44,532 bases of DNA, from contig JADFNO010000008.1 in the NCBI GenBank assembly GCA_022563315.1, positions 1 through 44,532 on the forward strand. The letters are read 5' to 3'. This DNA is from Planctomycetota bacterium. GTDB lineage: Bacteria; Planctomycetota; Phycisphaerae; Phycisphaerales; SM1A02. Below the pieces are notes generated by a model. The model saw nothing but the letters and a program-made list of their open reading frames with translations. It was not told the DNA's origin and did not search any database. The position numbers were made by a program, and so were the translations under genes. Shown in pieces: positions 14,416 through 18,220 of this stretch (within the stretch, counting starts at the first letter, position 1; every line of letters begins with the position of its first letter).

Positions 14416-14466
14416 CCGCAGAACTGTAGGTTCGAGATTGATGGCCAGGCAACCAAAAACAAACCC

Positions 14467-14491
14467 GAAAACGACTCCCGACCCCTTTTGT
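14467..14491 (+). repeat. REP-like element, intergenic copy
   Basis: A 25-bp sequence (GAAAACGACTCCCGACCCCT, then TTTGT) matches 22 of 25 bases with 14642-14666 inside mnmE. Here it is intergenic, 13 bp past the mnmE stop. It is held in a weak inverted repeat AAACCCGAA ... TTCGGGGTTT (14461-14504) that could act as a terminator for mnmE. Confidence 0.55.
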
Positions 14492-14504
14492 GGTAATTCG
14501 GGGT

Positions 14505-15878
14505 TTATTTGCCGACGCAGAAGGTTGAGAAGATTCGCCCGAGCACGTCGTCGGGCGTAATGTCGCCGGCCAGCTGTGATAGCGCGTTCAGCGCCAGGCG
14601 CATCGAAGCGGCGGTCAGCTCCGGTTGACGAAGGTCCTGCGGAAAAAGACTCCCGTCCCCTTTTTTGAGCGATTGGCGGGCTGTGGTGAGATGGGAATGA
14701 GCGGCGCGCAGGGCCGCCTCATGGCGGGGGCGCAGCGCGAGCGCATCCGCGGCGAGACTGACGGCGTGATCGGAGAGTCGTTGGGCGATGATGCGGCGAA
14801 GCTCGTCAAGGCCTTCACCGGTTTCGGCGCTGACGAACAGACCGGTCGCGTCTGGCTTCGTTGAGGTGAGATCAGCTTTGGTGCGAAGGACGAGCTCAGT
14901 TGGGTGGACAGCGCGCGAAGCCGCAAGCGGCTGAGCAGAGGGTACGCAGCGCAGGATCAGCTCGGCCCGGTCGATCGCGCTGCGGGCCGAGGCCTGCATC
15001 AGTTCGTCAAGTTCATCGACGGCGTCTGCGGCGCCGGCGAGGTCAACGAGCATCACCTCGGCCGGGCCGTGATCCGTCTCGATCTGCAACGGCTCGGTCA
15101 GAACATCGCGCGTCGTCCCGGCGATTTGCGACACCACCGCGCGCTGCGTGCCAAGCAGCGCATTGAACAGCGTGGACTTGCCAGCGTTCGTTTCGCCGAT
15201 CAGGACGACCCAGGGGATCGCCTCCAACCGCTCCATCCCGATCGCGCGGTCAAGTTGCGCCACGATCTGGTGATCGAGCGAGATGAGCCGATTGTGCAGG
15301 TCCTGGGGAGCAATGGGTACGACGTCCTCCTGGTCTGTGAAGTCGAGACCTGCCTCGACAAGCGCCAGGGCGGAAGCGAGCTCGTCGGCGAGTTCCTGGG
15401 CGAACAGGCCGAGCTTCCCCGTGGCGAGGAGCCGAGCTGCGCGCAACTCCGCGTCTGATTGAGCCGCAATCACACTGGCCACACCTTCCGCCTGCGTGAG
15501 TGTCATCTTTCCATGGAAGTACGCTCGAGCCGTGAACTGCCCCGCCTCGGCGCGGCGGGCGTCGATGCTGTTTGCCTGCGCCGTGGCCAGGAGTTCGTCA
15601 ATCACGCGCTGAAGCAGGATTGGATTGCCCGGCATCTGAAGCTCAGCCGCGTCCTCGCCCGTGTAGGAATGAGGAGCGCGGAACGACAGGATCAAGACAG
15701 GTAGGTGATGAGCGCGAAGCCGCAAGCGGCAAAGATGCGCGCCGTGTTGCGATCGTACATCAGGTTCGACGTGCTCAGCCAACAGATCGAAGGTTCGATC
15801 GCCGCTGATCCGAACGATTCCTCGCGCGGAACATCCAGGTGGTGAAGCAACGGCCAGAATTGTGCTGGAGGAATCCAC
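14505..15878 (-). CDS. mnmE: tRNA uridine-34 modification GTPase MnmE
   Basis: 457 residues. MnmE with MnmG makes the 5-carboxymethylaminomethyl group on tRNA wobble uridine. The N-terminal formyl-THF-binding domain includes SSSTILAVASPPGCSARGIV and YTGEDAAELQ. A G domain follows: P-loop GETNAGKST (228-236), switch GTTRD (254-258), G3 as DLAG (279-282, usually DTAG), G4 as TKAD (333-336, usually NKxD). The C-terminal FCVGK carries the conserved catalytic Cys. Residues 405-413 (KKGDGSLFP) are an extra stretch encoded exactly by a REP-like repeat. The start is a GTG. It follows yidC by 20 bp, the classic yidC-mnmE order. The G3 and G4 changes are conservative and the protein is probably functional. 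Confidence 0.93.
   Translation of the reverse strand: MDSSSTILAVASPPGCSARGIVRISGDRTFDLLAEHVEPDVRSQHGAHLCRLRLRAHHLPVLILSFRAPHSYTGEDAAELQMPGNPILLQRVIDELLATAQANSIDARRAEAGQFTARAYFHGKMTLTQAEGVASVIAAQSDAELRAARLLATGKLGLFAQELADELASALALVEAGLDFTDQEDVVPIAPQDLHNRLISLDHQIVAQLDRAIGMERLEAIPWVVLIGETNAGKSTLFNALLGTQRAVVSQIAGTTRDVLTEPLQIETDHGPAEVMLVDLAGAADAVDELDELMQASARSAIDRAELILRCVPSAQPLAASRAVHPTELVLRTKADLTSTKPDATGLFVSAETGEGLDELRRIIAQRLSDHAVSLAADALALRPRHEAALRAAHSHLTTARQSLKKGDGSLFPQDLRQPELTAASMRLALNALSQLAGDITPDDVLGRIFSTFCVGK
14642..14666 (+). repeat. REP-like element, copy inside mnmE
   Basis: Second copy of the 25-bp element of 14467-14491 (22 of 25 identical). On the mnmE strand it encodes residues 405-412, KKGDGSLF, in a helix-loop region where other MnmE proteins have nothing similar. 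The frame is kept, so the insertion seems tolerated. Confidence 0.55.
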
Positions 15879-15898: not shown

Positions 15899-18220
15899 TT
15901 AGCGTTTCTTGTATTTCTTCGGCGGAGGCTTGCGCTTCGCTTTGGCGCGCTCGATGGCATCGGTATACGCCCGAGCCTGCATATCCTTGGGCTTGCGCTT
16001 CGCTTTGGGCTTGGGCTTTTTCTTCGGGGCGAGGTCCATCTCGCTGATGTGCTTGCGCACGTATCGGCTTTCGATGATCCCGATAAGGGTTGACGTGAAG
16101 ATGTACAGCGTCAATCCCGACGGCGCGTTATAGAGCATGATTGGGAACAGGACCACCATCATGATCTTCATGATCTTCTGCTGCTGAATCTGCTCCTTGG
16201 TCATTGACGGGCTGGGCGGCGGCGACATGTACTTCTGTTGTATGTAGAAAACCACGCCCATAAGGATCGGCAGCAGGTTGAGCCCCGTTACATTAACATT
16301 GGCGAACAAGTGAACCGGCGTATTGAATTGCCAAAAGAAGTGATCGGCGCTGGAGAGGTCGGCGAGGAACGGCCATCCCCAGAACAGTTGGAAGAAACCC
16401 CAGAATGCCGGCTCGTGACGAAGCTCGAACGCGAAATACAGCATCGCATACAGGGCGATCCAGATCGGCGTTTGGAGGAACATGGGCAGGCACCCGAGCA
16501 TCTGCAACGGATTGGCCCCGCGCTCGCGCATGAGCCGCATCTGCTCCTGCTGCAGTTTCTTCGGCTGGTCCTTGTACTTCTTCTGGAGCTTGTCGATCTC
16601 CGGTTTGAGGTCGCCCATCACCTTGCCGAACCGCTGCATATTGATCTGCGCCTTCTTCGTCAGCGGATGCAGCAGCGTGCGGACCACACACACAAGAATG
16701 ATGATGGACAGCCCCCAGTCGAAGGTGATCGCATGAACGACGGAGAGGAATTCGATCAAGAAGTGCGCCAGCCACTGGAACGTGCAGATCGCGCAGAATT
16801 TCGACATCTGGTACAGGATCAGCCCGTCCATCGCCAGCGCCGCGAAGGGCTGCTGCTCGCCGAGCACGTCGCGCTGGAGCGGGCCGGCGTAGACACCGAG
16901 GTCGAACGCGGTTTCCTCACCCGGACCAATTGACCGAACCGGACTGTACAGGCCGGTGAAAACGATCTTCGGTTGATCGTCGAGCTCCGATACCTGCAAC
17001 TGGATTTCGCTGACGACGTCCTGGAAGGACTTCGATCCTTGGCCCGACTCATCGAGGATGGGATGGACGGCGAGCCCGAAGTAGCGATTGACGGTAGCGA
17101 ACCATGCGAGGACGTACCCCTTCTCACGCGAAGTGTCGTTGGGCCACAAGGTCAAGTGTTCGGTTTTTAGCACGGGGTCGCCGGCCTTCCCCGCCTCGAC
17201 GGCCTTCTTGGCCTTCTTGAGCAGGTCCAAGCGCTCAAGCAGCAGATCGTTGTCTTTGGACTCGACGCGATCGGGATCAAAGCTCGGCTGCGGGAGGAAT
17301 CCGAAGCGCGCCCGCCGGCGATCGATGTAAGCGGAGCGGTCCTGGCGGAGATCGCCGGGGCCGTATTGGATCCACTTTATGTCGAGCGATTGATCCGTTC
17401 GGTTGATTATGCGCTGCTGGATCGTAAAGCCGTACCCGCCGTCGTACAGGAACTGCCGCACGATGTCCACGATCCGCTGGTCGTTCTCATCGACGATCGT
17501 CGTCTCGAAGCGACCCTCGGCGGTCTCGGTCCACACGCTATTGGCTTGATCGAGCCGAACGGTCCGGCCGTTGATCACGATCGCAGCGACCGCAAGAACC
17601 GGGATCTCCTTTTCCTGCAGTTGACCCTTGGCGATCCACTTGAACAGCTGCGTTGTTTGCAGGACGTATCGCTTGTCATCGTTCGGCCGGTCGGGGGGTG
17701 ACGGGTCACCCGCCATGACGGCTTCGTAGTGCGCCTCGGCGCGGCGGCTGTCCGCGGCGGTCTGCCAATGCTCGGACAAGGTGATGTTTGAGATCCCGGC
17801 CCCGATCGGCGTCAACTCGATGTAAAGCTTCGCTACCCCCGGATCGAAAGAGCCGAGCGCCTGCGCCCCCGCCCCCGCCCCCGGAACGGCGGCGTCAGGA
17901 GTTGGCGCGACGGCCCGTAGGGTGGCCGCCGATTCCGCGGGTGCAGCCGACACCTCCGTCGTCTGTTGCTCGCCGATATCGGTATCAGGGTCGTCCTGGG
18001 AATCCGGCTCCGATCTCGAAGCGTCTTGCGGCTGGTTCGAGGCGACCGCCTCTTGATCCGAGTCGGTCGGCGCTTGATCAGACTCAGCGTCGTTGGGCTG
18101 GGCGGCGCTACCGGTGGCCGGTGTCGTTCGCGACGGCGAGAAGGCCACGGACAAAACGACAGCGACGGCAAAGCCCATGACTACCAGCGGAATGATGATG
18201 CGGCGGGCGCGAGGATTCAT
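15899..18220 (-). CDS. yidC: Membrane protein insertase YidC
   Basis: 773 residues, long for YidC (about 550). An N-terminal membrane helix (IIIPLVVMGFAVAVVLSVAF) is followed by an acidic Gln/Ser/Asp-rich linker and a large periplasmic domain. The conserved insertase core starts near 475: FDWGLSIIILVCVVRTLLHP, KKAQINMQRFGKVMGDLKPE, KYKDQPKKLQQEQMRLMRE, GCLPMFLQTPIWIALY, then FPIMLYNAPSGLTLYIF. The tail from about 725 is very basic (APKKKPKPKAKRKPKD and KRKPPPKKYKKR), suited to ribosome binding. YidC inserts proteins into the inner membrane, alone or with Sec. It lies 60 bp after a metallophosphoesterase gene and 20 bp before mnmE; rnpA and rpmH, often upstream, are not here. Confidence 0.96.
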   Translation of the reverse strand: MNPRARRIIIPLVVMGFAVAVVLSVAFSPSRTTPATGSAAQPNDAESDQAPTDSDQEAVASNQPQDASRSEPDSQDDPDTDIGEQQTTEVSAAPAESAATLRAVAPTPDAAVPGAGAGAQALGSFDPGVAKLYIELTPIGAGISNITLSEHWQTAADSRRAEAHYEAVMAGDPSPPDRPNDDKRYVLQTTQLFKWIAKGQLQEKEIPVLAVAAIVINGRTVRLDQANSVWTETAEGRFETTIVDENDQRIVDIVRQFLYDGGYGFTIQQRIINRTDQSLDIKWIQYGPGDLRQDRSAYIDRRRARFGFLPQPSFDPDRVESKDNDLLLERLDLLKKAKKAVEAGKAGDPVLKTEHLTLWPNDTSREKGYVLAWFATVNRYFGLAVHPILDESGQGSKSFQDVVSEIQLQVSELDDQPKIVFTGLYSPVRSIGPGEETAFDLGVYAGPLQRDVLGEQQPFAALAMDGLILYQMSKFCAICTFQWLAHFLIEFLSVVHAITFDWGLSIIILVCVVRTLLHPLTKKAQINMQRFGKVMGDLKPEIDKLQKKYKDQPKKLQQEQMRLMRERGANPLQMLGCLPMFLQTPIWIALYAMLYFAFELRHEPAFWGFFQLFWGWPFLADLSSADHFFWQFNTPVHLFANVNVTGLNLLPILMGVVFYIQQKYMSPPPSPSMTKEQIQQQKIMKIMMVVLFPIMLYNAPSGLTLYIFTSTLIGIIESRYVRKHISEMDLAPKKKPKPKAKRKPKDMQARAYTDAIERAKAKRKPPPKKYKKR

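Follow-up and report, generated by a model that had tools for sequence, protein, structure and literature searches.

A RAYT-associated REP/REPIN family with a GACT foot and its probable in-frame capture in mnmE of a planctomycete

The repeat found inside mnmE of this member of the Planctomycetota belongs, as a solo unit, to a REP/REPIN family associated with RAYTs, in which GACT replaces the canonical GTAG foot. A GACT REP/REPIN family associated with RAYT transposases, one copy of which has been captured in frame in mnmE, is very probable; this degree of confidence does not extend to a single event behind all the mnmE copies. A RAYT single-strand (HUH/Y1) transposase of its own may move the family, or may once have done so, a role suggested by the linkage described below. 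The family comes in three forms, namely inverted pairs of ~84 bp (REPINs), single copies and inverted flanks of RAYT genes. One copy would have inserted long ago into a variable inter-helix loop of the MnmE helical domain. All six frames of the GACT-type 21-mer are free of stop codons, so that an insertion of the right length would be translated as a short Lys/Gly/Ser-rich loop. Selection need only have tolerated such a loop, which is presumably neutral.

Copies in the window and the MnmE loop

The window, i.e. the whole 44,532-nucleotide stretch analysed, is contig C206 of genome G000, a 3.76-Mb genome in 298 contigs. The features relevant here are as follows.

14469..14489, plus strand: second REP unit, AAACGACTCCCGACCCCTTTT, downstream of the mnmE stop codon; matched by the 17-mer and the 21-mer
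14505..15878, minus strand: mnmE, with a GTG start according to the ORF tool and MnmE_helical, TrmE_N and MMR_HSR1 domains
14644..14664, plus strand: in-gene REP unit, AAAAGACTCCCGTCCCCTTTT, core at 14648-14660; inside mnmE, forming the KKGDGSLF codons on the minus strand
15899..18220, minus strand: candidate gene upstream of mnmE, which we take to be yidC-like; combined with MnmE in the tree

A preliminary description of this DNA reported two 25-bp copies of the repeat, the one within mnmE encoding KKGDGSLF, and both statements hold. The copies lie at 14465-14489 and 14640-14664 and are identical at 22 of 25 bases, and KKGDGSLF, read from the minus strand, forms residues 405-412 of the 457-residue MnmE (counted on the alignment). 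A search of the whole window with the 17-mer GACTCCCGWCCCCTTTT, allowing up to three mismatches, returned these two matches only (0.17 expected; two matches in one of 100 shuffles). The copy downstream of mnmE is 15 bases from the stop codon (14505-14507), and the outer arms of this unit (~14461-14507), judged by eye, extend into that codon. A copy of the downstream unit is found at the same place in G001 (L161) and G085 (L169).

The element fills a predicted inter-helix loop of the MnmE helical domain. An AlphaFold2 model (34 sequences; mean pLDDT 80.8, ~70 around the element) places a helix at residues 384-405, a loop at 406-418 and a second helix at 419-437. Counted on the alignment, the loop exceeds the commonest length by ~3-4 residues in the window's genus (g1) and by 11-14 in a related genus (g40). 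It also varies where there is no element, being three residues longer in G014 and shorter in G006. The segment had been described as an addition that is normally absent from MnmE. It is missing from all 20 MnmE sequences of 16 other genera, but the same residues are present in g40; the loop is longer in g1, but by about 3-4 residues relative to the commonest length and not by a clean eight. Part of the old loop was therefore probably lost with or after the insertion. MnmE, whose gene had been called essential-type, is usually not strictly essential.

The repeat family and its transposases

The core GACTCCCGNCCCC, with any base at position 9, occurs in 40 exact copies in the 3.76 Mb of G000, and its reversed control in none; it is a dispersed short repeat, as REPs and REPINs are. 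Restricting position 9 to A or T leaves 39 copies (~0.8 expected from the base composition of the window), and the 21-mer with up to two mismatches gives 41 (control, 0). The A/T core is present at least once in 35 of the 181 genomes of the family. The highest counts are in G001 (53), G000 (39), G064 (21), G002 (20), G085 (14) and G083 (12); in most of the remaining genomes the count lies between zero and a few, and single matches are uninformative because the reversed control also matches singly in a few genomes. The four g40 genomes have few copies, 5-14 each, and G014, of the genus g13, has five cores of the type designated GACT-T. Outside the family, 14 copies of the 17-mer were found in G039, which belongs to a different family of the same order.

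Architecture was examined in 158 copies (core with up to one mismatch and at least four of seven flank letters) from loci of seven genomes, a biased sample that had been fetched for the element. Sorting rules assigned 44 of them to inverted pairs, 37 to a kind whose downstream arm is rich in GGGG, and 10 to a kind preceded by a conserved stretch that ends in GGTGAC; of the remaining 67, some plainly belong to these three kinds. All three GACT inverted pairs tried form DNA hairpins (z -8.0, -6.4 and -6.2; 0 of 200 shuffles as good), as does a GTAG inverted pair of G014 (z -12.4). Neither solo unit of the window folds better than shuffles (in-gene, z 1.4 and 1.3; downstream, z 0.05 and -0.3), nor do two more single copies (z 0.6 and -0.3). 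The hairpin is thus found in the inverted pair and not in the single unit. GACT stands at the end where GTAG would be expected, and the GTAG family of G000 otherwise shows the same layout.

Some GACT-T copies in g1 and g40 are preceded by ~100 bp of conserved sequence ending CGGAATCGACGGTGAC..GGCCGG..GAAAAA (L001, L025, L124, L303, L336 and others). An Rfam scan of this stretch at eight loci gave two matches, both far under the family cut-off.

The PF01797 (RAYT) profile has 19 matches in G000, none of them on the contig of the window. A REP lies within ~100 bp of three of these genes, on C78 and C271 (GACT) and C75 (GTAG); the flanks scanned of the other 16 contain no REP of the GACT or GTAG patterns. 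GACT-T REPs are present on both sides of the RAYT of G001:C42, and GACT-A REPs on both sides of those of G000:C271, G002:C240 and G001:C19 and on one side of that of G000:C78. GTAG-T REPs accompany the RAYTs of G000:C75 (both sides) and G002:C241, and GTAG-A REPs flank a RAYT of G064 on both sides. The REPs are inverted about the gene at G001:C42, G001:C19, G002:C240, G000:C271 and in G064. In total, REPs stand beside a Y1 transposase at eight loci, and 31 of the 39 transposase loci scanned show none in the flanks examined.

Identity between different loci is 60-69 % among RAYTs with GACT REPs (orthologues, 98-99 %) and 57 % among those with GTAG REPs (orthologues, 96 %); between the two sets it is 48-52 %. 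The comparison leaves out G000:C143. Higher identity within the same foot (57-69 %) than across feet is the pattern expected if each transposase owns its REP. The RAYT of G001:C270, beside which no REP was seen, shares 53 % identity with that of C42. Eight of the 29 PF01797 matches in the four g40 genomes were scanned and had no flanking REP, and three g40 proteins share 30-39 % identity with the REP-flanked RAYTs.

The preliminary description envisaged a mobile short repeat turned into a coding insertion, and proposed an alignment of MnmE from relatives, a genome-wide count and a search for a RAYT transposase as checks. The 20 of 20 sequences without the segment, the 40 copies and the 19 PF01797 matches, with REPs linked to RAYTs, support this view, in which the element would have arrived in the gene from elsewhere. 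It could be argued that there is no mobile element and that KKGDGSLF is a chance Lys/Gly-rich coding segment, as loop length and sequence vary in relatives even without the element. Given 40 copies against a control of zero, the paired hairpins and the flanking of RAYTs, such an origin is scarcely credible.

History of the mnmE and serA sites

The MnmE alignment comprised 30 rows for 27 distinct genes; these come from 26 genomes, out of 73 that gave a match (loci L259-L262 were left out). The element is present in seven distinct mnmE genes: those of the window and G001, the g1-type gene of G085 and the g40-type genes of G083, G084, G085 and G086. All seven have it in identical frame and orientation, reading KGDGS or [KN]GVGS; the remaining 20 genes, from 16 other genera, lack it in the alignment. 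The core was found inside mnmE at six of 79 named loci, which represent the same genes as in the alignment set. The mnmE of G002 was not found in that genome, which is 66 % complete (one GTPase match at 3e-9). Comparison within the genus gave no empty site, in that each examined locus aligning across an element in G000, G001 and G002 carries it, these loci having nearly all been chosen for the element or a RAYT. With two genera carrying the element and 16 without, the mnmE insertion is old or recurrent, rather than recent.

Two further observations concern these genes. G085 (JADFFQ; L164, L169) contains a g40-like mnmE as well as a second mnmE with 93 % identity to that of the window, which suggests a mixed bin. 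In mnmE of G084 and G086 there is a tandem partial duplication beside the core (AAAAGGGGGTCG occurs twice in G084), giving a longer coded loop.

The mnmE copies of g1 and g40 may trace to one event. In a tree of MnmE and YidC with the loop removed (19 rows), g1 groups with g13, represented by G014 (support 99/98). A topology constrained to unite g1 with g40 is disfavoured (AU p 0.037); the composition of the g13 row is unusual. The MnmE-only tree again recovers g1 with g13 (0.983), with a support of 0.045 for the placement of g40. As the sister genus g13 has no mnmE copy, a single origin needs a loss there; a search for a remnant in mnmE of G014 gave a match equalled by 44 of 1000 shuffles, the best of the 20 element-free rows. 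The history is thus either one insertion lost in g13 or separate hits in g1 and g40.

Separate insertions into the same tolerant loop, of GACT-T in g1 and GACT-A in g40, with g13 never hit, are a real possibility, which we put at somewhat less than an even chance. They would account for an element-free sister of g1 and for the different subfamilies, AAAA..GTCCCC in g1 and AAAC or AAAT..GACCCC in g40, which in g1 genomes flank different RAYTs; there is also a precedent in serA, where two REP families occur at one site (see below). Against them, orientation and reading frame are identical in the two genera. In codon register, 11 of 13 core bases are identical between g1 and g40, and 24-27 % of 13-nt windows equal this (12 pairs compared). 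Such divergence is ordinary for genes at this distance and fits plain inheritance, so that it decides nothing between the two histories. TCGCTC, which abuts the window copy, occurs ~10-25 bases to the left in g40, a weak point against independence as G001 and G085 have TCTCTC. Conservation of the core DNA between g1 and g40 was also considered as a signal of selection, and was rejected as 24-27 % of 13-nt windows are as identical.

An in-frame REP was also found in serA; 61 of the 181 genomes of the family were searched for this gene, including one of the four g40 genomes.

G000:C234:22756-22776 (L122): serA in-frame REP
G001:C294 (L335): serA in-frame REP
G002:C24 (L345): serA in-frame REP
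G014:C19:44750-44767 (L357): serA in-frame REP

In G000 and G001 a GACT copy, encoding KGTGVF, is located ahead of the ACT domain, within the PGDH_inter match. In G014, KGTGYF is encoded at the same codon and in the same frame by a member of the GTAG-CCTG family, AAGGGGACAGGCTAC. The g1 sequence is GGGGACGGGAGTC and that of g13 GGGGACAGGCTAC, the four differing bases being exactly those of the other family. Nine of 13 serA rows, including that of G086 (g40), have neither REP family at the site. In G002 the frame changes after the element, where two bases are missing; this may reflect a true change or a fault of the assembly. In serA of G001 and G002, too, part of the sequence next to the core occurs twice in tandem, which makes the coded loop longer.

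The serA site raises the possibility that one old insertion per gene was later swapped in place for another REP family, by gene conversion or RAYT-mediated exchange. The occurrence of GGGGACGGGAGTC in g1 and GGGGACAGGCTAC in g13 at the same codon and frame would be explained in this way. This is the single clear site, though, with neither donor nor conversion tract demonstrated. Two independent hits also explain serA, because both families occur in both lineages: the GTAG type has six matches in G000, and GACT-T five cores in G014. The GTAG-CCTG family has 12 matches in G014 (up to one mismatch, serA included). Replacement is considered rather unlikely. The wider proposal, that in-gene REPs are long-lived landing pads at which later families replace earlier ones without change of position, orientation or frame, at serA and perhaps mnmE, is put forward tentatively and is more doubtful than not. 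If it were true, one site would pass between RAYT/REP systems as the protein stays open.

Copies also occur in other coding sequences. An ORF of the PMT_2 family, whose domain lies upstream of the copy, reads through the copy without a stop in G000, G001 and G002 (g1 genomes only; Pfam was run on two), and a copy forms the C-terminal end of an HMGL-like protein in G084. On G000:C45 (L003:171-1268), a PPIC-type rotamase ORF takes its last residues from a REP copy and ends just past it.

Comparison with known systems

By title and abstract, none of the open-licence papers among the matches listed describes this case, and the matches listed for the repeat's own sequence strings appear unrelated by title. 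The family resembles the GTAG REPs/REPINs with RAYT (TnpA_REP) in its short unit, its inverted-pair hairpins, its REP-RAYT-REP arrangement and the pairing of REP types with different RAYTs; it differs in its GACT foot, its ~40 copies and a single unit that forms no hairpin. A GTAG-CCTG-TCCCC family and its RAYT are present in the same genome (C75). The 40 copies are low compared with the >100 usual for REP families according to the available part of PMC2817692. For Planctomycetes, the accessible text of PMC6006769 describes a TnpAY1 class 3 system, with a class 3 transposase and CnGA-footed structures. It also reports REP insertions within tnpAREP genes of subclass 2.4 that keep the frame, as here, although the host gene in that case is the transposase itself.

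Rickettsia palindromic elements (RPEs) likewise comprise palindromic repeat DNA lying in frame in unrelated genes (PMC10969869 and PMC3733652, as far as their available portions go). In the part of PMC10969869 available, RPEs are ~150 bp long, encode a conserved peptide and occur in frame in genes for unrelated proteins; RPE-4 and RPE-6 are CGTC-tagged REPs (same portions of PMC10969869 and PMC3733652). The 21-bp GACT unit does not match that length or a conserved peptide, being read in different frames as KGDGS in mnmE and KGTGV in serA.

The closest likeness is to the intragenic REPs of PMC3733652, the available sections of which report REPs inside ORFs in several species, with loops and linkers as the likely cause of tolerance, and different REPs near the same recB site in two Xanthomonas species. 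Both there and here, REPs occur in ORFs of known function and different REPs at approximately the same site; unlike those in the sections available, the present genes are mnmE and serA, the organisms are Planctomycetota and the site is common to two genera. The mnmE copy represents a REP become protein in a housekeeping gene, spread over related genera, with REP-flanked RAYTs in the same genus. In-gene REPs are already known, and what is less ordinary is the occupation of one site by different REP families. With two families at one codon of serA in sister genera, the re-targeting of old REPs by REPs becomes testable.
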